Shown piece after piece: positions 7,686-18,821 of a stretch of DNA of 36,581 nucleotides. Positions within the stretch are counted from its first letter, which is position 1. Each line of letters starts with the position of its first letter. Below the pieces are notes generated by a model. It saw only the letters and a list, made by a program, of their open reading frames with translations. It was not told where the DNA came from and made no database searches. A program made the position numbers and the translations under genes. This DNA is from Candidatus Melainabacteria bacterium RIFCSPLOWO2_02_FULL_35_15 (GTDB lineage Bacteria; Cyanobacteriota; Vampirovibrionia; 2-02-FULL-35-15). The DNA lies in assembly GCA_001784585.1 (NCBI GenBank), contig MFRN01000021.1, forward strand, positions 1 to 36,581, in the 5' to 3' direction.

Positions 7686-9407
<1,722 letters not shown>

Positions 9408-9409
<2 letters not shown>

Positions 9410-10127
9410 ATTCGGCAATTTTATGAGCCACTGATTTAATATTTTCTCTTGTAAGCTTTGTTATGCAAGCAAGCTCATTTCCTTTAGCCCAATTAGGATT
9501 TTTTTCTACAAAATATTTAATGTGAACATCTTGCATTTTTTTTTCATCTATATCAGCAATTCCTTCTTTTAAATAATCCTTTTCCTGCTTAAAGCTTATA
9601 ACTCCTCTTTGTAGATCATAGTGATCCCGAAATTTTAGAATTGCAAGACTGTCTAATATCCTTTTTTCTTTTTCTGGAAAATTCTTACCATATTGTGGAT
9701 AAAACTCATGAAAAAAGAGAGGTAAAAACTTATATGTTTTATAACCTTTTGTTATTAAAAACCAGTACAATTCTGCCTGGGGGACTTGATCAATTAAACA
9801 AAAAACATACCTAAACCAGAACTTAGGCAGCTTATTACTTCCCCAGCATTCCTTTTCAATAATTGTATCCCCAGAAAATAAGGCCATAATAAGCTTCTTA
9901 TCAATAACTTGCTTTAATAATCCAATTGTTGAAAAACCTTTAATTTCACCACTAATTAATTCTTTCAATAGAATCACATCTTTTTTTTCTTGTAAGTCAT
10001 TTTTAAAGCTTTCAATTTTTGTATTATAGTAGTATTTTTGCATAATAGAGTACATAATCTCAATTTCAGAGCAAGTTAAGCAGCTAATTTTTCTTACTTC
10101 GCCAGTAAGTTGTTTTAGCCCACCCAT
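9408..10127 (-). CDS. GNAT-like protein, last gene of island operon
   Basis: A 239-residue cytoplasmic protein that I cannot name firmly. The middle (about residues 50-145) has the strand pattern of a GNAT acyltransferase: VILLKELISGEIKGFSTIGLL, then LIMALFSGDTII, then AELYWFLITKGYKTYKFLPL followed by FFHEFYP. The last stretch resembles the beta5-alpha4 region in which a strand leads into a helix after a bulge. No classical Q/RxxGxG/A acetyl-CoA loop is obvious, so catalysis is uncertain. The ATG follows the previous gene's TGA by one base and has AGGAG 9 nt upstream, indicating translational coupling. Its TAA overlaps the edge of the left 95-bp repeat. It probably acts with the neighbouring GNAT-like protein. 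Confidence 0.5.
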
Positions 10128-10128
10128 T

Positions 10129-11193
10129 TCACAAAGCTCCTAATTCAAGATAAGGGACTCTCTTCTTTAAAAATTCTATTTCATTAGCTATATTACTAAA
10201 AGAAACAATATAAATCTTTGATTTATACTTGATTGAAGAAAAATGATTAAGTGCTTCATTTAAAGGATCAAATTCTTCAAGTCCTATAGCAAAATAGTCA
10301 AAACCTTTATCCACTTCATCCAGAGATAAAGTCAACAACATATCTTCTAATATTTTTGGCTCATTATCCTTAATAGTAAAAAGAGAAACATAAAAAAAAT
10401 TAATCCTCTTAGCTTTTGGGGAAAATTTAAGCAAGCCAGATATTTTAAATTGATTACAATCTGTCAAATGCACTTGTTTGAATGCTCTTTGATCCCACTT
10501 TGCAAAAATTCCGACAATTTCTTCTTTGTTATTTACTGCAATGTAAAAATCTTCTTGTTTTAATCCTTTAAGAAAACCAGTACCAAAATCTGATACTTTA
10601 TAATATGGATAAAATTGTTTTTTTTGTCCTTCTTCATGCAAAAAGTTGATTACAGATTCCAGTGGAAAGTCGGTGCCTTTTTTGATCTTATATATTTTGC
10701 TTTGTTTTATTCTATCCAGCTTTACCAAGTATGTCAGCAAATTACCATAAGGAGTATAAGTTGGAAGTCCAGCTTTTCCACTTTCGAGGACTTTTCTTGC
10801 TTCTAAATTATCTTCAACAATTGTTGTTAGATAAAAGGGAGCACAATTGTCTTGATCCAGTTTTCGAAGAAATTTATAACCTTTTGCAAGATAAATATTT
10901 TTTCTAAATTTTGAAGTTACTCTTAAACTACTTAAATATCCAATATTTACAATCTCACCATTTACAAAAACTGGTTTTATAGCTCTTACACCAAATGCAA
11001 TAAGTTCACCTTCTTCTTCTGTTTTTATTACAACTATTTGACATTTCTTTCCTTGAACTTGTACTGCATTAAAAAAACTTGGCTCAGTTTCAAAACTAAC
11101 AGAGATTGAACCTTCAATTTGATTAGTTTTTAGACCTTCCCTTAATATATAGTCATCTTCTTTACTTGCAATTTTAACAATGCACTTTACCAT
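10129..11193 (-). CDS. GNAT-superfamily N-acyltransferase-like protein
   Basis: About 354 residues. The N-terminal half resembles a GNAT domain: a strand pair around IVVIKTEEEGELIAFGVRAI, then NIGYLSSLRVTSKFRKNIYL, a V/LRV-x-x-x-x-R type acyl-CoA loop region, and IVEDNLEARKVLESG, which matches the GNAT helix with conserved N and A-R. The C-terminal half (from about 190) may be a second, degenerate GNAT fold. A longer start at 11220 overlaps the upstream gene by 23 bp. The ATG at 11191-11193 is preferred because it follows that gene's stop by 4 nt and has AGGA 8 nt upstream. A likely role is to move an acyl group to an amine in the island pathway; donor and acceptor are unknown. Confidence 0.6.
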   Translation of the reverse strand: MVKCIVKIASKEDDYILREGLKTNQIEGSISVSFETEPSFFNAVQVQGKKCQIVVIKTEEEGELIAFGVRAIKPVFVNGEIVNIGYLSSLRVTSKFRKNIYLAKGYKFLRKLDQDNCAPFYLTTIVEDNLEARKVLESGKAGLPTYTPYGNLLTYLVKLDRIKQSKIYKIKKGTDFPLESVINFLHEEGQKKQFYPYYKVSDFGTGFLKGLKQEDFYIAVNNKEEIVGIFAKWDQRAFKQVHLTDCNQFKISGLLKFSPKAKRINFFYVSLFTIKDNEPKILEDMLLTLSLDEVDKGFDYFAIGLEEFDPLNEALNHFSSIKYKSKIYIVSFSNIANEIEFLKKRVPYLELGAL

Positions 11194-11197
11194 TTTA

Positions 11198-12580
11198 TTA
11201 GTCCTGACAGCCAAGTTCATTGAGAGCTTCAGTTGTAGCTAGCTCTTCTTTGCTAATGACATCTCCAATAGGCCAGTATTGTCTTTGTCGTACTCCATAG
11301 TATGAGGTAAAGTTAGCAGAAAAATAAATTAAAGATTGATTAATATTTTTGCAATTAGCCTTAAAATCAATCATTCGCTTAAAGATAGAGCCAGAATTGT
11401 AAAATTTAGTTCTACACTCAAAACATTTTTCTGCAAGGATCTCAGCTGAAAAATTTTTAGGTCTAAAAGCTACTTCACCAAACTTGTAATCGGGTTTAAT
11501 CCACCAGTTTGGAGTAATTAGCCTTCCTTCGCTCATTAGTCTATTATAAAGTGCCGTTCCAGGGTATGGTACTAGATGATTAAAAGCAGCAAGAGCAAGT
11601 TTTTGTTCAATAGCAAAGTCTAAAGTTCTGTCAAAGTCTTCTAAAGTATCATAATCATATCCAAAGACAAATGTTGCATAAATAGTAATTCCATGATCTC
11701 TGAGCATACTAATCGATTCTGAATAATTCCTCTTTACAACAGTCCAGCTTTTTCCCATAGCTTCTAAATTTTTGGGATTAAGAGATTCAAAACCAATTAA
11801 AATATTTGCACAACCACTTTTTTCCATAAGCCTTAAAAGTTCTCTGTGATTAGTCATATTTATGCTTCCATGGCTAAACCACTTTTTCTTAAGTGGAGCA
11901 ATTGCCTTGCACAGCTCTTTAGTTCTGTTGATTCTTGAAACAAAGTTATCATCAACAAAATAAATAAGATCTCCCTTTAAACTCTCAATATCGGCAACAA
12001 TATTTTTTATTTCTTTGTTTCTATAATTTCCTTTAAATGAACCTGCAATAGCACAAAATTCACAATAAAAAGGACAACCTCTACCGGTCTCAACCATTTC
12101 AAGAGCAATATACTTTTTTTTAGCAAATAAATCTCTTTTAGGTTTCACATGTTCAAGCATTCCTGTAGTCGCTTTTGATCTATAAGTCTTTTGTAAAGTG
12201 CCTTTTCTTGCGTCTTCCATTACTGTTCCCCAAGTATCTTCTGCATCACCTATAATTACAGAATCTGTATGCTTAGCTGCTTCTTCAGGAATTAAGGATG
12301 CATGTATGCCACCCATTACAACAGGGACTCTTCTTTTTCTAAATTCCTTAGAAATATTGTAGGCCCTTTGAGCTGTGTATGTTTCTATGGGAATTGCTAC
12401 TAAATTGGTCTGTTCATCATAAGGGATTTCATCTAACCTATCATCATAAAATTTAATTTCGACATCTTCTGGAGTTAACCCTGCAATAACTGCTATAGCT
12501 AAAGGCTGCATTTGCCATGAGTCAACATATTTCCCTCCCTTAATTTTCCCAATACTTGGCTGTATAAGAGTTAATCTCAT
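11198..12580 (-). CDS. B12-binding-type radical SAM enzyme (first)
   Basis: 460 residues with an N-terminal Rossmann-like domain of the B12-binding type (1-130; VPVVMGGIHASLIPEEA is the typical second half), then a radical SAM barrel with the cluster motif CPFYCEFC (Cys169, 173, 176), and later GFESLNPKNLEAMGK and FVFGYDYDTLEDF, which are standard in this group. The canonical DxHxxG cobalamin ligand motif is not seen, so cobalamin may be bound base-off without His, or not at all. Family members methylate unactivated carbons or remodel rings and lipids. The C-terminal 100 residues are family-specific. The gene is preceded by GAGGA and lies 2 bp after the paralogous gene, so the two are cotranscribed and probably act in sequence. 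Confidence 0.85.
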   Translation of the reverse strand: MRLTLIQPSIGKIKGGKYVDSWQMQPLAIAVIAGLTPEDVEIKFYDDRLDEIPYDEQTNLVAIPIETYTAQRAYNISKEFRKRRVPVVMGGIHASLIPEEAAKHTDSVIIGDAEDTWGTVMEDARKGTLQKTYRSKATTGMLEHVKPKRDLFAKKKYIALEMVETGRGCPFYCEFCAIAGSFKGNYRNKEIKNIVADIESLKGDLIYFVDDNFVSRINRTKELCKAIAPLKKKWFSHGSINMTNHRELLRLMEKSGCANILIGFESLNPKNLEAMGKSWTVVKRNYSESISMLRDHGITIYATFVFGYDYDTLEDFDRTLDFAIEQKLALAAFNHLVPYPGTALYNRLMSEGRLITPNWWIKPDYKFGEVAFRPKNFSAEILAEKCFECRTKFYNSGSIFKRMIDFKANCKNINQSLIYFSANFTSYYGVRQRQYWPIGDVISKEELATTEALNELGCQD

Positions 12581-12582
12581 AT

Positions 12583-13956
12583 TTAAGCAATTTCCTCTTT
12601 AAGAATGTACTCATCTGAGTCATGATTTGGATTCCATTTAAACTGAATTTCCTCCATTTTACTTATTGGAAAATCCTTTAGTTTTTTTGCATAGTACCTA
12701 TATCCAATATTTGTGATCAATGGAACGTAAGGTGGTACTCCTGAGCCTAAAATCCTGTGAATAATAGATTTTATGCTATAAGTTTGTTTCCATGCCCAAA
12801 GTTGGCCTTCCCTTAATTCCTCTGATGTCATTTTTAGTGGCTTATATACAACATGTTGTGCATCATATAGTGTCCAATTCTTTGTTAGAATTCTGCCCTC
12901 TTTTTCTAATCTTTTAAATAATGGTGTACCTGGGAAAGGAGTATAAATAGAGTATCGTGGGAGATCGATTTTTACCTCATTAACAAAATCAACTGTCCTC
13001 TTAAAAGAGTCCTTATCGTCATGGTCCATCCCGAACATAAAAGTTCCATTAATTGTAATACCTCTGTCATGAAGTTTTTTAACTATTTCTTTGTAATTAC
13101 TAACATTGTTAAAACTTTTATTTATAATTTGTGTTCCTTCATTAGAAACTGTTTCAAAACCTATTAGCAATCCTTTGCAACCACTCTTAACTGCCAAGTC
13201 CATTAACTCTTCATCATCTGCTATTTTTACTGTAGCTAAACCACTCCATATTTTCTTTAATGGGATCATGGCTCTCCATAGTTCCTTTATATATTTTTTA
13301 TCTTCAATTGGACTTGGATCAACAAAAATAATAAGATGACTACCTAGTGCTTCAATTTCATTAATTACATCAGTTATAGGCCTATGAAGATAATTTTTAG
13401 ATGTTGCTGTAACTGCACAAAAATCACATTTATACGGACACCCAAAGGTTGCTTGAACTGCGCCATAAGATATATAAGAAAATCTCTTAAGAAGATCTCT
13501 TCTAGGTATAGGCAAGTTAGATAAATTAATATTTTCAGGTTGAGTATATAATTTTTTTAATTCTCCGTTTTTAAAATCTCTAAGAAGCTGAGGCCATGTC
13601 TCATAAGCTAACCCAGTTATTACAGCATCTGCATGATGCATTGCTTCCTGGGGCATAAGTGTAGGATGCACACCACCTAAAACCACAGTAGCACCTCTTT
13701 TTCTGAAATGATTAGCTAATGCATATGCCCTAACTGCAGTACCGGTAATTGCACTTATCCCTATTAAATCAGCTTCTATATTTTCGTCTAATACACAAAC
13801 TCCCTCATCAACTATCTCAATTTCAGCTTCTAATTCTTTCGGGACTAATGCTGCCAAGGTTGTTAATGTAAGCGGAGCATATCTAAGTAAGGTAGGAAAT
13901 ATTCCACCTTTTTTTCTATACATTATGCCACTAGGAGATATAAGTAGAATCTTCAT
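12583..13956 (-). CDS. B12-binding-type radical SAM enzyme (second)
   Basis: About 457 residues. It has an N-terminal B12-binding-like domain (MKILLISPSG start, ATVVLGGVHPTLMPQEA) and a radical SAM barrel with CPYKCDFC (Cys173, 177, 180 from this start), followed by GFETVSNEGTQIINK and GTFMFGMDHDDKDSF. It resembles the BchE/HpnJ-like group, whose members act on cyclic or lipid substrates; the substrate here is not determined. It is a diverged paralogue of the next gene, with the same domain order and length. An upstream TTG at 13965, 5 nt after a G6 run, would add MLQ; I prefer the ATG at 13954-13956 because MKILLISP is the normal N-terminus. No DxHxxG is seen here either. Confidence 0.84.
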   Translation of the reverse strand: MKILLISPSGIMYRKKGGIFPTLLRYAPLTLTTLAALVPKELEAEIEIVDEGVCVLDENIEADLIGISAITGTAVRAYALANHFRKRGATVVLGGVHPTLMPQEAMHHADAVITGLAYETWPQLLRDFKNGELKKLYTQPENINLSNLPIPRRDLLKRFSYISYGAVQATFGCPYKCDFCAVTATSKNYLHRPITDVINEIEALGSHLIIFVDPSPIEDKKYIKELWRAMIPLKKIWSGLATVKIADDEELMDLAVKSGCKGLLIGFETVSNEGTQIINKSFNNVSNYKEIVKKLHDRGITINGTFMFGMDHDDKDSFKRTVDFVNEVKIDLPRYSIYTPFPGTPLFKRLEKEGRILTKNWTLYDAQHVVYKPLKMTSEELREGQLWAWKQTYSIKSIIHRILGSGVPPYVPLITNIGYRYYAKKLKDFPISKMEEIQFKWNPNHDSDEYILKEEIA

Positions 13957-14033
13957 TTGAAGCAAATTATCCCCCCTATCTTTATACCTCTATGGTGCAT
14001 ATTCTTTGCTATTAGTTCAATCAAATAAATTCC

Positions 14034-14456
14034 TCAATTACACCTTCTAACTTGTAGAAGCATTGATATGCCAATAACTACAACAACTGCCAATACAATC
14101 ATATTTTTAAATGGGTCAACATTATTTATTAACCCTTCTGGTGATGAGCAAAAGAAGAAAATTCTTTGAGCAATCCTAATAGCACATAAAGCTATCCCAA
14201 TATAAATGATAGTTTTATACTTGCTTGGATTTGTTGCAGCTAAAGCCATGAACACGCCAAAGATCAAAAGGTAAGCAGAAAAGGGATTTAAAACCCAACT
14301 TATCTGATCAGTTAGTATCAAGTTAAAATTAAAAAAAGTTCTTGCAAGGACTACAGTTAGATCCTTTGCAAAAATACCTATACATCCTAGGATGATATGG
14401 TATATTGCAACAAACCATAAGATGGTTTGTAAAAATTGATTTGAGTTTTTTGACAT
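14034..14456 (-). CDS. Small four-helix membrane protein of unknown function
   Basis: 140 residues with about four hydrophobic helices: LQTILWFVAIYHIILGCIGIF, the NPFSAYLLIFGVFMALAAT region, the IIYIGIALCAIRIAQRIFFF region, and a last one near MIVLAVVVVIGISMLLQV. The polar loops are short and no catalytic motif is visible. I do not recognise the family with certainty. A strong ribosome-binding site (GGAGGAG) precedes the ATG. It lies between the GH3 gene (62 bp upstream) and the radical SAM genes (about 75 bp downstream), so it is probably part of the same operon. It might hold the pathway at the membrane or export the product; this is inferred only from its position. Confidence 0.65.
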   Translation of the reverse strand: MSKNSNQFLQTILWFVAIYHIILGCIGIFAKDLTVVLARTFFNFNLILTDQISWVLNPFSAYLLIFGVFMALAATNPSKYKTIIYIGIALCAIRIAQRIFFFCSSPEGLINNVDPFKNMIVLAVVVVIGISMLLQVRRCN

Positions 14457-14518
14457 GATGTTTCTCCTCCAAAAAAGAGTTTAACACTTACTAAATTAAA
14501 AAGTTTGTACGAAACTAT

Positions 14519-16120
14519 TTATATAACAAAATCTCCTTTAAAATTCCTAAGCCAACCTGTTTTATTGCAAAGTACCGTAGATTTAACGCTACCGATTTGT
14601 TTCCCTTTGGTTTTTTCCAGATAAATATCTGAGGCTCTCTTAATATTATTTATGTCGATTAGAAAAATCTTAATTGGTCCTAATTGACCAAGCTTTCTAC
14701 AATACTTATAGTGATAATTTTCTTGCAATCTTTCATCCAAAACTTTTGCGACTTTAACTAAAATTGTATTTTGATGTTTGCCCAACTCCAAAAAAAGCGT
14801 ATATGAGTAAGAATTCTGGTCTTTTATATACTCTGGAGCAATCATATAAAAAGAAGGGTTCAACAAATACTGTTTGAACACTGTCTTTATAACTTGTTCA
14901 ACATTAGATTCGTTTAACTTCTCCCCAAAAAGATCTGATACTTTACTGCTCCTACCCACAAACCTCAAAAGTGGGCACTGATTCTTAAAACCTACAACTT
15001 TGACTATATCTTGTAAGTTGTATCTATATAACCCTCCACTATTAGTTAAAATTACTTCATACTGTTTCCCCAACTCTAGTTCATGAGCTAACTTAAGGTT
15101 ATTTTTTTTATCTCTTTCCTTAAATTCAAAAAAATGAGAGTTTATTGACAATGCAGCCCCCTCACGTTCTACAAGCGGAAAAGAAATAAATCCTTCGGTT
15201 GCAATAAGTCCTTTACCTTGAATCTCAACTTCAGGAAAAAGTTCTTCCACCTCTCTAATAGACATTGCAGCATTCCCATCGACCCACATACTTATCAATG
15301 AGAGTTTTGTCCAAATCCTCTTTAAATAATTTTTTTTCTGCAGGTCAAAAAAAATATTCTCTAGTTCTTTAGATCTAGTTTTATCTTTAATTTTTCTTAT
15401 AACCAAATCTGGATTATTTAATAACGGTCTAAGTAATAACAATAAGAATGTTGGATTCCAAATAGAGATAAAAGCTAAATTTTTGTCATTAAGTAAGGTT
15501 ATTAGTGTTAGATCTTTAAATTCCTCAATATTATGTATCTTAGCAACATCAAAAGGAACAGAACTTAATTTAGAAATAATTTCTTGTTGCTCGCAAGTAA
15601 AATAAGATCTATCATCTCCAAAGCCAATAAGAATTCCATTCTTAGTTCTAATATTTTGAGAGGTAGCGGGAGTTATTGACCAATAAAAACTCCCATTACT
15701 TATCCCAGGTTTATTTTCAAATAAATCATAAAACCAAGCAGAAATCCCATTTCTAAATTCTTGAAACAAAGATTTTGTGTATGGTATTAATTTGGTAGGA
15801 GTTACTGATCCACTAGTTGGCTCCAAAATAATAACTGGCTCGTTGGTTAATATATTTTGTTCCCCATTTATAATTCTATCTATGTAATCTTTATAATCTT
15901 CATAAATTGTTAATGGTACAAATGTTTGAAAATCTTTAATTGTTTTTATTTTCTTGAAATTATATTTTTTGCCATAAACAGAGTCTTCATTACGTTGAAG
16001 GATAGAAAACAGTTTCTTTTGTTGTATCTCTTTAACATTATTGCTAGAACTGCAGAAATCTAAGTTCCCTCTTAAGAAAGAAAGCTTTAGTGCTTGATTT
16101 AGTTTCTGATATTGTTTCAT
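14519..16120 (-). CDS. GH3-family acyl-adenylate amide synthetase
   Basis: 533 residues matching the GH3 (auxin-responsive promoter) family of ANL-type ligases, which activate a carboxylate with ATP and join it to an amine, usually an amino acid. Seen in order: FVPLTIYEDYKDYIDRIING, the ATP-loop EPTSGSVTPTKLIPYTKSL, GSFYWSITPATSQN, an ATEGFISFPL stretch, NSGGLYRYNLQDIVKVVGF, and LRFVGRSSKVSDLFGEKL leading into the small mobile C-terminal domain. All core motifs appear intact. Its ATG overlaps the stop of the upstream gene by 4 bp (ATGA), so translation is coupled to the DUF2145-like secreted protein. It is the best clue that the island makes an acyl-amide product. The acid and amine substrates are unknown. 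Confidence 0.85.
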   Translation of the reverse strand: MKQYQKLNQALKLSFLRGNLDFCSSSNNVKEIQQKKLFSILQRNEDSVYGKKYNFKKIKTIKDFQTFVPLTIYEDYKDYIDRIINGEQNILTNEPVIILEPTSGSVTPTKLIPYTKSLFQEFRNGISAWFYDLFENKPGISNGSFYWSITPATSQNIRTKNGILIGFGDDRSYFTCEQQEIISKLSSVPFDVAKIHNIEEFKDLTLITLLNDKNLAFISIWNPTFLLLLLRPLLNNPDLVIRKIKDKTRSKELENIFFDLQKKNYLKRIWTKLSLISMWVDGNAAMSIREVEELFPEVEIQGKGLIATEGFISFPLVEREGAALSINSHFFEFKERDKKNNLKLAHELELGKQYEVILTNSGGLYRYNLQDIVKVVGFKNQCPLLRFVGRSSKVSDLFGEKLNESNVEQVIKTVFKQYLLNPSFYMIAPEYIKDQNSYSYTLFLELGKHQNTILVKVAKVLDERLQENYHYKYCRKLGQLGPIKIFLIDINNIKRASDIYLEKTKGKQIGSVKSTVLCNKTGWLRNFKGDFVI

Positions 16121-16932
16121 TGGCTGCGATAAAAAATCTTTTTTGTAAATAAGTTTGAATTGTATAAATCACGAACCATTATTGTTTTAACATATCCATT
16201 TTTAGGAAGCTCATCCCAAAAGACATGAGGCATAAGTTTAAGAAGTAGTTTTCTGTAAACCGTTAACCTTAATGGTTCTATAATTATTTCATTATTAATG
16301 ATTTCTAGTAGCTTATTGGCATTATATATATTTTTCTTTGCAGCAAACACATTTAATATAACCCATTCAACACAATTGGTACTATTCAAATTTTCTATTG
16401 GTGAAATTAAGTTGTATTTTTGTGATTTTACTAAATCTTTATATTTCCCAGATACAAAACCTAATATCAGATTTTTTTGAATATTGTTATTAGGGATTAA
16501 TATCAAAGCATTTAATTTCAGATCAGGTTGTGTATAAAAAAAATCATAAACAGAAGTTCTCTTTATTTCAAAGAATCTATGCTTCGTTTTTGGATTTGAA
16601 AACAAGTTATACACCATCCATTGATCAAGTTCAGGATCCCGGAGAATAATGCCTGTATGTCCCATCTTTGTTTTATCAAGCACTCTTACAAATCTTATTC
16701 CAGGTCTTGAAACTATAGCAGCCTTAGTATCTGATTGTTCCAGTATTTCAATAACCCACTTGCTTAGCTTTTTAGCAATCCTCTTTTTTAAGATATTAGG
16801 ATGTTTACATTCTTTTATTAAAGGCAAGGTTGTATTAACTTTGACATAATTATTTGAAGCTTCAACTGACAAGAAAGAAACTAGGATTGAAACAGTTAAT
16901 AGGTATAAGATTAGTAAATGTTTTATGGACAT
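16117..16932 (-). CDS. Secreted DUF2145-like protein (possible permuted papain/NlpC fold)
   Basis: 271 residues with an N-terminal signal peptide (about 1-25). The body follows DUF2145 closely in order: AAIVSRPGI, KMGHTGIILRD (His92), WMVYNLFSNP, DFFYTQPDLKLNALILIPNN, KSQKYNLISP and NSTNCVEWVILNVFAAK (Cys187). A His early and a Cys later in an N-C-x-E/Q-W context is the arrangement of circularly permuted NlpC/P60 (LRAT-like) enzymes, so hydrolase or acyltransferase activity outside the membrane is possible. That fold assignment is my inference. It overlaps the upstream small secreted protein by 10 bp and the downstream GH3 gene by 4 bp, which places it firmly in the operon. Confidence 0.6.
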   Translation of the reverse strand: MSIKHLLILYLLTVSILVSFLSVEASNNYVKVNTTLPLIKECKHPNILKKRIAKKLSKWVIEILEQSDTKAAIVSRPGIRFVRVLDKTKMGHTGIILRDPELDQWMVYNLFSNPKTKHRFFEIKRTSVYDFFYTQPDLKLNALILIPNNNIQKNLILGFVSGKYKDLVKSQKYNLISPIENLNSTNCVEWVILNVFAAKKNIYNANKLLEIINNEIIIEPLRLTVYRKLLLKLMPHVFWDELPKNGYVKTIMVRDLYNSNLFTKKIFYRSQ

Positions 16933-17309
16933 GGCAATTTTTTATAAATGGATCTTATTATTCCGCTTTCTTCGACCCTAAAGCACTTTTTCATACCACT
17001 TGAGTCAATGTAATTAACTTCATAATGCTCTTCAAGCGGATTTAAACTACTTAAGAATAAGTTATTAATTTCTACTTCACTTGAACCTGCTGAAATTTGG
17101 CTATATATAAATCTGTCTGCGCGTGGATTTGAATCATCCAGAATGCTATTATCAGTTGAATCAACGGCTGCATAAGTCCCTAAAACAGCACCTAATACTC
17201 CTAGAGTAACATTACTACTATTATTTTTGTGCTTTGCATAACTAACCTGAACATTTAGACCAAAAATTAAGACAAGAATAATTATTATGACTTGTAATTT
17301 ATTTTTCAT
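16923..17309 (-). CDS. Small secreted protein of unknown function
   Basis: 128 residues. Residues 1-25 form a signal peptide (VIIIILVLIFGLNVQVSYA, with cleavage probable after AYA-type SYA). The mature part has a glycine-rich hydrophobic stretch (VTLGVLGAVLGTYAAVDST) and a C-terminal region with two cysteines (KKCFRVEE and the final LPCP) that could form a disulfide. The C-terminal part, HYEVNYIDSSGMKKCFRVEE, resembles short beta-rich domains with an SmpA/OmlA-like look, but I cannot assign it. It is the second gene of the operon, 14 bp after the first, and overlaps the DUF2145-like gene by 10 bp. A ribosome-binding site (AAGGAG) precedes the start. Confidence 0.65.
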   Translation of the reverse strand: MKNKLQVIIIILVLIFGLNVQVSYAKHKNNSSNVTLGVLGAVLGTYAAVDSTDNSILDDSNPRADRFIYSQISAGSSEVEINNLFLSSLNPLEEHYEVNYIDSSGMKKCFRVEESGIIRSIYKKLPCP

Positions 17310-17323
17310 GATTTCTCCTTTTA

Positions 17324-17809
17324 TTAATCTTCTTCAAATGCTTTTCCTACGAAGAAAGCTGCTGGTATAAATGGAATTAAAATGCTGCTATCTATGCTAT
17401 TGTTTGTTGAACCTTGAACTACTGCTAAAAATCCCACAATAGGGACTGCAACTGCTGTAGCTGCTACTGCACCTATTAATGGTACAACTTTTGGTCCATG
17501 TTTTCCAATTCTTGCACTGGATTTCTTAGTAGGGGCTTGCGATGCTACAAAGTAATGATAGTTCCCAGTTGCATCTACGACATGACCAACATTTCTGCTG
17601 CCCACAGTTCCTTTGCCAAACAACAATCTTCCTTTAGAATAAACATTTTTTGATATTTCAAATCTATTGTTATCAAGTGAAACAACTGAAATGGTTGTTC
17701 CGGAGTTAAGTCTTATTTCTTCTGCATAAACAGGACTGTTTAAAAGAATTGAAATAATAACTAACAAACTAACAATTGTTTTACTTAGGGTTGATACTAT
17801 ATTTTTCAT
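17324..17809 (-). CDS. Secreted/membrane-associated protein, first gene of the TetR-controlled operon
   Basis: 161 residues with a signal peptide ending PVYA (about 1-29). A short beta-rich domain follows (EIRLNSGTTISVVSLDNNRF, then KGRLLFGKGTVGSRNVGHVV); the pattern resembles proteins with an SH3-like or OmpA-associated barrel. A hydrophobic region rich in Ala, Val and Pro comes last (VVPLIGAVAATAVAVPIVGFL and IPFIPAAFFVGKAF), probably one or two membrane-associated helices. I do not recognise a named family. AGAGGAG lies before the ATG, and the gene has its own promoter and two operator-like palindromes upstream, so it is the first gene transcribed in the operon. Confidence 0.65.
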   Translation of the reverse strand: MKNIVSTLSKTIVSLLVIISILLNSPVYAEEIRLNSGTTISVVSLDNNRFEISKNVYSKGRLLFGKGTVGSRNVGHVVDATGNYHYFVASQAPTKKSSARIGKHGPKVVPLIGAVAATAVAVPIVGFLAVVQGSTNNSIDSSILIPFIPAAFFVGKAFEED

Positions 17810-17830
17810 TATTGTTCTCCTCTTTTATTC

Positions 17831-17877
17831 TGAACATTGTTTAATTTATTTATACCACATAATTATACAGTGTTCAA
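17831..17877 (-). promoter_or_regulatory. Operon promoter with two TetR-type operators
   Basis: On the minus strand, TTGAAC (17872-17877) and TATAAA (17849-17854) are 17 bp apart, a good sigma-70 promoter. Palindrome GAACACTGTA (17866-17876) overlaps the -35 box, and TTAAACAATGTTCA (17831-17844) lies just after the -10 box at the expected start site. Both carry the AACAnTGTT-like core also seen over the tetR start. A repressor on these sites would block polymerase. Confidence 0.7.
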
Positions 17878-18002: not shown

Positions 18003-18019
18003 ATTAAACATTGTTTAAT
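18003..18019. promoter_or_regulatory. Perfect AACA-T-TGTT palindrome between tetR and the operon
   Basis: ATTAAACATTGTTTAAT is a 17-bp palindrome with a single central base, sharing the core of the operators at 17831-17844 and 18643-18663. It lies 11 bp after the tetR stop codon. It may be a distal operator for looping, or a weak transcription terminator for tetR. The other 180 bp between the genes shows no further signal. Confidence 0.5.
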
Positions 18020-18029
18020 TCAATTAAGA

Positions 18030-18635
18030 CTATTTAGATTTGATACCATTAGTAAAAATCTTAGCAAATGAGTTAGCTAGTGTATGTGCTGATCCTGCGC
18101 TTGCAGTGTCAAGTTTTCTGGTTAAAGAAAGAATGCATATGCCATGAAGAGAGGCCCAGAGAACCCTGGATAAATGTTCACTTTCTTTTTTGTGGTTCTT
18201 AGTAAATGGCAATAATGATTTTTCAATAAGCTCAAATATTCTGTCTATTTTATCCTGATACCATTTAGGTAATTTTTCTCCTTGTGGTCTTGGGAAATGA
18301 TGCTCATATAACATACTCCAAAAATTAAAGTGTTTAAAACTAAAATCTATATAACACTTACAAATATTATCTATTACTTGTTCTTTATTACTTATATTTG
18401 AAGTCATCTTTAAGAGTTCTTCATATAATAAATCTAATGTTTGAGCATTAATTTGTAAAATTAATTCGTCTAGATTTTTAAAAAAATTATAAAGAGTCCC
18501 GGGTGTGTATTTGATATCTTTTGCAATTTTTCTAGCACTAAGATTTTGAAATCCTTCTTTTTCTATAATCTTTCTACTGGCAGAAAGAATTATATCTTTA
18601 AGTTCATCTTTTGTATGATCGCTACGTCGTGCCAT
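18030..18635 (-). CDS. TetR/AcrR-family transcriptional repressor
   Basis: 201 residues. The N-terminal helix-turn-helix domain spans about 8-55: IILSASRKIIEKEGFQNLSA, then RKIAKDIKYTPGTLYNFFKN, the typical TetR recognition helix ending in LYNFF. The remaining helices form the ligand-binding and dimer region, with a C-terminal part (SRVLWASLHGICILSLTR) seen in the TetR_C group that includes AcrR-like regulators. The gene is in the island and on the same strand as the operon. A 21-bp palindrome over its promoter and related sites before the operon point to autoregulation and control of the nine genes by a small-molecule ligand, possibly the operon product. The -10 box is only 7 nt from the ATG and no ribosome-binding site is present. 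Confidence 0.88.
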   Translation of the reverse strand: MARRSDHTKDELKDIILSASRKIIEKEGFQNLSARKIAKDIKYTPGTLYNFFKNLDELILQINAQTLDLLYEELLKMTSNISNKEQVIDNICKCYIDFSFKHFNFWSMLYEHHFPRPQGEKLPKWYQDKIDRIFELIEKSLLPFTKNHKKESEHLSRVLWASLHGICILSLTRKLDTASAGSAHTLANSFAKIFTNGIKSK

Positions 18636-18642
18636 AGCTTAT

Positions 18643-18663
18643 ATTATAAACAGTGTTTATAAT
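18643..18663 (-). promoter_or_regulatory. 21-bp TetR operator over the tetR promoter
   Basis: ATTATAAACAGTGTTTATAAT is a perfect palindrome with one central base. On the minus strand its end forms a TATAAT -10 box (18643-18648), 7 nt before the tetR ATG, so the transcript is probably leaderless. Binding here would block transcription of tetR. The core AACA(G/T)TGTT matches the operon sites. Confidence 0.7.
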
Positions 18664-18722: not shown

Positions 18723-18817
18723 CCAGGTGGCGGAATGGGCATGGGAGACTATTAAGAAGTAGTTAAATAGTTAAATAAAATCAAAATAAAGGCAGGTTTT
18801 GAACCTGCCTTTATTTT
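18723..18817. repeat. 95-bp direct repeat, copy 2 (groEL tail remnant), right edge of island
   Basis: Identical to 9315-9409. Here the groEL codons are orphaned: there is no coding sequence upstream, only the island's end (GGGATACTTGA). This is the scar left downstream of the island and probably the original end of groEL before integration. Confidence 0.95.
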
Positions 18818-18821
18818 TTTT
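18783..18821 (+). terminator. Ancestral groEL terminator copy
   Basis: The same 16-bp stem and 3-nt loop as at 9375-9409, here followed by a longer T-run (TTTT beyond the repeat), the classical form for plus-strand transcription. It now insulates the island from the gene at 18915. Confidence 0.75.

Follow-up and report, generated by a model that had tools for sequence, protein, structure and literature searches.

A putative acquired biosynthetic island in a Melainabacteria genome, with a conserved GH3, radical SAM and GNAT core that may make a modified acyl amide

The window analyzed here is the whole stretch of 36,581 bases (positions 1 to 36,581) of contig MFRN01000021.1 from Candidatus Melainabacteria bacterium RIFCSPLOWO2_02_FULL_35_15, whose genome assembly comprises 1.94 Mb in 45 contigs and is 98.95% complete. 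Open reading frame calling places nine minus-strand genes from position 17809 down to 9408, with a tetR gene on the same strand upstream (18030 to 18635). Five of the nine, encoding a GH3-type ligase, two B12-type radical S-adenosylmethionine (SAM) proteins (rS1 and rS2) and two GNAT proteins (A1 and A2), form a core that recurs across phyla. We put at roughly 55% the joint probability that this block is a horizontally acquired biosynthetic island and that its core makes a modified long-chain acyl amide, either an aminolipid-like compound or a secreted lipid metabolite. The computational evidence consists of the conserved core, an insertion at the end of groEL, the predicted protein folds, conservation of the A2 C terminus, operator-like sites, and the exchange of one enzymatic module for another between clusters; the chemical steps, the product and its location are what we infer. 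The core genes are as follows.

14519..16120, minus strand: GH3-type acyl-amide ligase, 533 amino acids (Pfam GH3, GH3_M, GH3_C)
12583..13956, minus strand: rS2, B12-type radical SAM protein, counted from an ATG, with the frame open from a TTG at 13965 (Pfam, NCBIfam, tree)
11198..12580, minus strand: rS1, B12-type radical SAM protein, 460 amino acids (Pfam, NCBIfam, tree)
10129..11220, minus strand: A2, N-myristoyltransferase (NMT)-type double GNAT, 363 amino acids (model predicted local distance difference test score [pLDDT] 90; best matches NMT; conserved C terminus)
9408..10127, minus strand: A1, single-domain GNAT, 239 amino acids (model pLDDT 95; GNAT structural matches; 47 loci)

A preliminary description of this DNA had reported nine same-strand genes with short gaps or overlaps, and the coordinates bear this out. 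In transcription order, the first three junctions are a 14-bp gap, a 10-bp overlap and a 4-bp overlap; the next two, on either side of a membrane protein gene, are gaps of 62 bp and 68 bp (counted from the TTG); and the last three, from rS2 onward, are a 2-bp gap, a 23-bp overlap and a 1-bp gap. Pfam likewise confirms its GH3, radical SAM, DUF2145 and TetR identifications, one B12-binding domain falling slightly below its cut-off, and structure models give both GNAT-like proteins the GNAT fold, while A1 and A2 of the window have no significant Pfam match.

A scan of genome_contigs (84,980 species genomes) with two short A1 peptide patterns matched 73 stretches, of which 47 were confirmed as A1 loci; the patterns came from a seven-sequence alignment with six rows from clusters already seen, and the 47 loci are not a census. 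GH3 is present in 42 of the 47, in 40 of these on the same strand and within 200 bp, and in the five loci without it the contig ends at most 301 bases from the A1 frame. A2 accompanies A1 in 35/47 loci and at least two radical SAM genes do so in 34/47. Among loci with at least 5 kb on both sides, 19 of 21 carry the complete core, the exceptions being L083 and L098. In the preliminary description, homologues scattered independently of any shared neighborhood would have spoken against a single pathway. The loci do not show such scatter: 30/47 combine A1 with GH3, A2 and two or more radical SAM genes. The idea of a dedicated pathway is thus supported for these five genes, and not for the other four.

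Complete cores are found in Bacillota (9 loci), Melainabacteria (8), Pseudomonadota (4), Deferribacterota (Mucispirillum, 2), Omnitrophota (2), UBP9 (2) and Synergistota (1), with two more unspecified, for seven named phylum-level groups overall. Within the window's class, A2 occurs in 6 of 382 genomes, its own included; the other five, which are also among the 47 A1 loci, have A1, GH3 and radical SAM genes beside A2. Two gene orders recur, A1-GH3-rS2-rS1-A2 and rS2-rS1-A2-A1-GH3, and that of the window is GH3-(membrane gene)-rS2-rS1-A2-A1. The named isolates that carry the whole core are Peptoclostridium litorale DSM 5388, Citrobacter youngae ATCC 29220, Budvicia aquatica DSM 5075 and Limnobaculum allomyrinae BWR-B9. 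A Citrobacter portucalensis plasmid (NZ_CP134684.1, locus L053; IncFIB/IncFII, typed as mobilizable) also bears a complete cluster, with five radical SAM genes plus PAP2 and fatty acid desaturase genes, downstream of an alpha-2-macroglobulin gene. A search of E. coli gave nothing close to the Citrobacter youngae cluster.

Some loci depart from this pattern. In L103 (3936 to 6725, on a Burkholderiales contig), GH3 and A2 matches share one open frame, a possible fusion that was scored as lacking A2 in the 47-locus count. A trio comprising a hexapeptide-like protein, an Amidohydro_2 protein and another type of radical SAM protein lies downstream of GH3 in clusters of the second order (L057, which equals L097, and L100, L102, L104 and L107); L057 to L061 are duplicate contigs of L097, L100, L076, L075 and L077. 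An Acinetobacter record (L054) reads A1-GH3-outer membrane efflux protein-A2-SurE, with neither a radical SAM nor an oxygenase module, and EmrA/EmrB-like genes (by eye) upstream of its A1/GH3/A2 set suggest export of the product.

Both rS1 and rS2 carry the Radical_SAM Pfam domain above its cut-off, and the B12-binding domain of rS2 is above its own (34.4 against 32.1). All 119 radical SAM rows scanned (above 200 bits, 380 to 520 amino acids, duplicates included) have the CxxxCxxC motif, and the proteins belong to the B12 type. In a tree of 112 proteins, which left out L057, L080 and proteins outside 300 to 520 amino acids or below 90 bits, the rS1-like and rS2-like proteins separate into two deep groups; inside these, proteins from the same position (after GH3, before A2, or in an accessory pair) mostly cluster across phyla, the pattern expected of a co-inherited pathway. 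Neither protein reaches the curated cut-off of a named radical SAM equivalog (BchE, HpnJ, HpnR, PhpK and others): the best NCBIfam matches are BchE for rS2 (95.8 against 481.35) and PhpK for rS1 (92.9 against 600), with HpnJ second for both.

A second form of the cluster bears on what these enzymes do. In the window's phylum, A1 is found in 31 of 386 genomes, 27 of them outside its class; two of the 31 matches are marginal (E values of 3e-4 and 9e-4) and one is partial, and 25 stretches were fetched, two of them repeating L083 and L069. The neighbors of A1 in these 25 stretches include a first Rieske protein (19), a 313-amino-acid protein (19), an AurF-like protein (18), a second Rieske protein (15), GH3 (15), a hexapeptide-like protein (14), a ferredoxin (14) and a fatty-acid hydroxylase (13), with domain names taken from L083 and the ferredoxin named by eye. 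In L083 itself the Rieske and FA_hydroxylase domains are above their Pfam cut-offs, and AurF (20.4 against 29.6) and Hexapep (24.3 against 27) are below theirs. Across 74 A1 loci (counted without L130, which equals L083, L149, which equals L069, and L055, L057 to L061 and L063 to L068), 42 have radical SAM genes only, 23 have Rieske or AurF-like genes only, none has both and nine have neither (Fisher P = 3e-12, a value that overstates certainty, since related loci are not independent). Among those nine is L111, with a P450 and a desaturase. The hexapeptide-like protein is present in 14/23 oxygenase-form stretches.

The two forms also differ in their hosts. Among 35 genomes tested, psbA was found in 18 of 21 of the oxygenase form (all but G039, G384 and G393; two Burkholderiales loci are left out of this count) against 0 of 7 of the radical-SAM form, and the "neither" group is mixed, with psbA found in G421 and G419 and not in G414, G416, G055, G090 and G406; three of the 20 psbA-matching genomes have only pieces below the cut-off. 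Oxygenic cyanobacteria are thus the main hosts of the oxygenase form. On the A1 tree, from which one short A1 was left out, the oxygenase label requires six changes, five of them forced by supported branches, although several long branches make this number unsure; the module therefore seems to have been swapped several times. Two side observations concern this form. The 313-amino-acid protein (L083, 1134 to 2075; relatives in L132 to L153) is in 20 of 23 oxygenase-form loci and has no Pfam or NCBIfam match, and L063 and L064 (in G055 and G090, around the L002 and L003 GH3 genes) carry the oxygenase set (GH3, AurF-like, ferredoxin, Rieske and hexapeptide-like genes) with no recognizable A1.

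The oxygenase form resembles a published class. Of 95 cyanobacterial clusters with CylC homologs, 36 are described in the excerpts of PMC8406957 as "Rieske-containing" orphans with no known product, in which one CylC homolog is accompanied by two to four Rieske proteins, by a sterol desaturase family protein and by acyl transferases; the AurF-like proteins would be putative CylC homologs. The preliminary description had called the operon undescribed. No description of the radical-SAM form was found in the open-access literature searched; for its oxygenase counterpart the claim has to be qualified because of the resemblance to that published class.

On this basis we suggest, with less than even confidence, that A1 and GH3 are the heart of a widely transferred acyl-amide pathway whose C-H-modifying module has been exchanged repeatedly, giving related products. 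The variants would be B12 radical SAM proteins in hosts that lack photosystem II; Rieske, diiron-like and fatty-acid hydroxylase proteins mostly in psbA-bearing cyanobacteria; and, once, a P450 with a desaturase. The strongest competitor concerns the chemistry. It is conceivable, though rather doubtful, that the radical SAM proteins are C-methylases (or phosphorus-methylases), with a methyl-branched acyl amide as the product in place of an oxidized one. Methylases are among their NCBIfam matches (PhpK, HpnR, KedN5 and others), with PhpK at the top for rS1, and cobalamin-dependent radical SAM enzymes are, according to PMC13142503, predominantly tied to methylation. However, BchE, the top match of rS2, is not a methylase, HpnJ ranks second for both proteins, and their replacement elsewhere by Rieske, AurF-like and fatty-acid hydroxylase proteins (0 of 74 loci with both) suggests C-H oxidation, with the proviso that the loci in these counts are not phylogenetically independent.

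The ligase would give the pathway its amide. GH3 ligases carry a nucleotide motif, (T/S)(S/G)G(S/T)...K, and the window protein, with TSGSVTPTK and with its N, middle and C domains all above the Pfam cut-offs, belongs to the GH3 acyl-amide ligases; the family profile matches plant GH3 structures. At E 0.1, NCBIfam yields a single match for it, to the N-acyl-ornithine synthetase OlsH; with 53.9 bits where 620 are required, it falls outside that equivalog. The L083 fatty-acid hydroxylase likewise has one NCBIfam match, to the ornithine lipid hydroxylase OlsE (47.3 against 475). Fatty acid desaturase and PAP2 genes are present in some clusters. We favor a lipid product because OlsH and OlsE are the nearest named relatives, because fatty-acid enzymes lie nearby, and because A2 is modeled as an NMT-type protein.

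That the block was acquired is indicated by its position at the 3' end of groEL, between two copies of a direct repeat.

9315..9412, plus strand: left copy of the direct repeat, 98 nucleotides, 97/98 identical to the right copy; last 33 nucleotides of groEL plus terminator
18723..18820, plus strand: right copy of the direct repeat, 98 nucleotides, adjoining the native downstream gene
9375..9409, no strand assigned: bidirectional terminator common to groEL and the operon, perfect 16-bp stem

The repeats agree without any difference over 95 bases (9315 to 9409 in the left copy), which include the groEL stop codon, and the genome has no third full copy. The preliminary description makes no reference to this repeat at the ends of the block. 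Both same-genus genomes show the empty site, with groEL, the terminator, a 96-amino-acid gene and coaD in the arrangement seen to the right of the island. GH3 was not found in these two or in eight other same-family genomes searched, and A2 was not found in any of the same ten. Since the terminator varies between species and the window copies are nearly identical, the duplication is probably a young event within this lineage. Pfam recognized no integrase or recombinase among the ten genes that the repeats enclose (a 9.4-kb island); possible routes of insertion are a circle entering through homology or a duplication at insertion. The A1 stop codon (9408 to 9410) is created at the junction of island and terminator. 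The shared terminator of the preliminary description exists, as a perfect 16-bp stem, but it is the groEL terminator, used convergently (a terminator scan found 2 sites against 4.8 expected in shuffles).

An assembly product, in which the assembler joined to the chromosome a 9.4-kb circle, or a strain variant, carrying a single repeat, would mimic such an insertion, given that 95 identical bases is a length at which short-read assemblers can misjoin and that no recognized integrase lies inside the block; both block ends, however, continue into native groEL and downstream sequence as in the sister genomes, and we consider this explanation unlikely. A search for a plasmid origin found no near-DNA match of the block to plasmids. 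A viral origin was rejected, none of 87 pattern matches in viral_contigs being confirmed as a relative (in the phage search, two records of a single Streptomyces phage matched rS1, at 25% identity), as was a defense system, for which PADLOC gave weak matches only (27 and 35 bits), both to the radical SAM proteins and from one candidate model. No close donor was found; the highest identities to window A1, GH3, rS1 and rS2 in the trees are 43, 46, 46 and 54%, and that to A2 is 37%.

The two GNAT proteins were characterized mainly by their structure models, Pfam Acetyltransf_1 barely touching a single A1 and two of eight A2 members. The A1 model is a single GNAT, with SpNatD as its best VIA match (Z 12.6, 157 residues, 3.2 Å). 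The A2 model is a double GNAT whose best VIA matches are NMTs (Z up to 23.3, 304 residues, 3.6 Å), with an alignment that reaches the NMT C-terminal residue; most listed NMT rows (Z 21.8 to 23.3) align A2 to residues 492, 451, 455 or 496, the NMT C terminus. The predicted A2 model thus shows the double GNAT fold, with its C terminus placed at the active-site C-terminal residue of NMTs, although A2 has no match to the NMT sequence family in Pfam or NCBIfam. Among the A2 rows (39, each with a stop codon), the last residue is L, I or V in 38 and the fifth-last is E in 36 and D in 3; without L057 (which equals L097) and L080 (a near-twin of L079), 36 of 37 end in L, I or V, with 35 E and 2 D. The A2 of L082 stops early with an F, and the E in its fifth-last position may be chance. 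PMC4964394 and PMC7048800 describe the carboxylate at the C terminus of yeast and human NMT as the catalytic base. NMT-type structures have already been reported in bacteria and archaea in PMC12219266, which assigns them no function and cautions against inferring activity from them.

These matches raise the alternative that A2 (and A1) acylate a protein or peptide, which would make the operon a bacterial system for protein lipidation and not a small-molecule pathway. Structurally, A2 is after all best matched by protein N-myristoyltransferases, enzymes that place myristoyl on the N-terminal glycine of proteins, and the island encodes three proteins with signal-like N termini (by eye). Yet those small island proteins are not conserved along with the core, and GH3 ligases and most listed B12-type relatives use small molecules or lipids, even if some use peptides. 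We hold protein lipidation to be quite improbable and prefer the acyl-amide pathway.

The remaining four genes of the block are these.

14034..14456, minus strand: membrane protein (by eye), 140 amino acids, local extra (no Pfam match)
16117..16932, minus strand: DUF2145 protein, N terminus signal-like (by eye), local extra (Pfam 48.5 bits)
16923..17309, minus strand: 128-amino-acid protein, N terminus signal-like (by eye), local extra (open reading frame)
17324..17809, minus strand: 161-amino-acid protein, N terminus signal-like (by eye), local extra (open reading frame)

Neither these four genes nor tetR have a counterpart in the 51 other loci compared (phmmer at E 1e-4, open reading frames of at least 80 amino acids, many loci being cut by contig ends), except for a 24-bit match of the membrane protein in L106. 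They look like local extras, and the view of the secreted, DUF2145 and membrane proteins and TetR as conserved pathway members, put forward in the preliminary description, finds no support in this comparison. The DUF2145 match exceeds its cut-off (48.5 against 25); 15 related genomes searched hold no intact relative of this protein and no match to the 161-amino-acid protein. The GHTG and NC motifs of the DUF2145 protein (by eye) may mark a permuted NlpC/P60-like fold. The reading of the nine as unrelated genes gathered by chance in one island, to which the lack of counterparts for these four (or a 24-bit match at best) might point, is largely refuted for the core by five families standing together in 30/47 loci and seven named phylum-level groups, and can be dismissed as scarcely credible.

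The regulator and its candidate sites are listed below.

18030..18635, minus strand: TetR-family regulator, 201 amino acids (Pfam TetR_N, NCBIfam)
17831..17843, minus strand: operator-like site (pattern match)
17864..17876, minus strand: operator-like site overlapping a TATAAT upstream of the operon (pattern match)
18005..18017, minus strand: operator-like site between tetR and the operon (pattern match)
18647..18659, minus strand: operator-like site overlapping a TATAAT just upstream of tetR (pattern match)

The regulator belongs to the TetR family (TetR_N 36.3 bits against a cut-off of 24), and its gene is separated from the first operon gene by 220 bp. The genome holds six copies of the pattern TRAACAMTGTWYA. 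Four of these fall in a stretch of 829 bases around tetR, three between tetR and the operon and one upstream of tetR; the pattern was drawn after the fact from the tetR region, and a reversed control pattern occurs four times. This arrangement gives tentative support to autorepression by TetR together with control of the operon, as far as sequence can indicate it. Weak NCBIfam matches of TetR to FadR and FabR hint that its ligand may be an acyl or fatty-acid compound. A strong promoter, as claimed in the preliminary description, is not supported, the promoter scan having found 35 sites against 44.0 expected in shuffles.

In the pathway we propose, GH3 would adenylate a free fatty acid and couple it to an amine. 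rS1 and rS2 would then oxidize, desaturate, cyclize or methylate unactivated carbons of the chain without O2, and A1 and A2 would add further acyl groups onto amines, A2 perhaps by an NMT-type mechanism with its own C-terminal carboxylate as the base. TetR would repress its own gene and the operon through the palindromic sites until a ligand, possibly an acyl compound, binds.

Several results weigh against this explanation. The B12-binding domain of rS1 scores 31.2 against 32.1, just under the Pfam cut-off. The oxygenase form holds GH3 in 14/23 stretches and A2 in 2/23, which makes A2 chiefly a feature of the radical-SAM form. The scores for OlsH and OlsE lie far under their cut-offs, and the core GH3s are not one clade (three changes on the GH3 tree, which was built without L057, L080, L004 and GH3s of at most 250 bits or 380 amino acids), the L002 and L003 GH3s, scored as "other," clustering with them. 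Window A1, GH3 and rS1 have no well-supported sister in the trees. No NCBIfam family is matched by any of 46 A1 or 36 A2 members, and a non-NMT double GNAT, MAB_4324, is a near-equal match for A2 (Z 21.8, 298 residues, 3.7 Å), with an alignment that stops at A2 model residue 347. Finally, human NMT1 minus its last two residues reportedly shows no change in turnover, with another glutamate as the base (PMC7048800), so the conserved A2 ending is no proof of mechanism.

If the proposal is correct, the radical-SAM form gives a bacterial NMT-type enzyme a biosynthetic role, and the module-exchange link would reveal the product class of an orphan family of cyanobacterial clusters. The five-gene core, which is named here and for which the literature searched holds no description, is common to gut, sediment and enteric bacteria, and cultured carriers exist in which to search for the product. 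Bacterial NMT-type proteins gain a genomic context, and linking a radical-SAM pathway to the orphan cyanobacterial class would allow oxygen-free and oxygen-using solutions to similar chemistry to be compared directly.

Among known systems, BchE, HpnJ, HpnR, PhpK and the ladderane-lipid radical SAM proteins share the B12-type radical SAM architecture with rS1 and rS2 and differ in that all scores are far below the curated cut-offs; their genes, we presume, stand in a genomic context unlike that of the window. LasI-type acyl-homoserine-lactone synthases share the GNAT fold with A1 (VIA Z 11.4, 161 residues, 3.4 Å) with no sequence match, and LasI is not special in this respect, since N-terminal and histone acetyltransferases (SpNatD) score equally high. 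With NMTs, the A2 model has in common the double GNAT fold, a superposed C terminus and a conserved ending; A2 differs in being bacterial, with 10 to 14% identity in the listed rows and no sequence-family match.

The OlsH/OlsI ornithine-lipid pathway resembles the core described here in that a GH3-like enzyme would perform the amide-forming step. It differs in that its operon also encodes OlsI, an alpha/beta-hydrolase, a Pfam domain for which the nine genes of the block gave no match, and in that the excerpts of PMC12493201 name no radical SAM or GNAT partner. The "Rieske-containing" class of CylC-homolog clusters is close to the oxygenase form rather than to the block, whose nine genes encode radical SAM proteins and no Rieske or diiron domain and thus fall outside the class as those excerpts of PMC8406957 define it. 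The words "GH3" and "acetyltransferase" do not occur in that paper's main text, but the parts are otherwise similar to those of the oxygenase form: A1, two Rieske proteins, an AurF-like protein, a fatty-acid hydroxylase, a hexapeptide-like protein and GH3.

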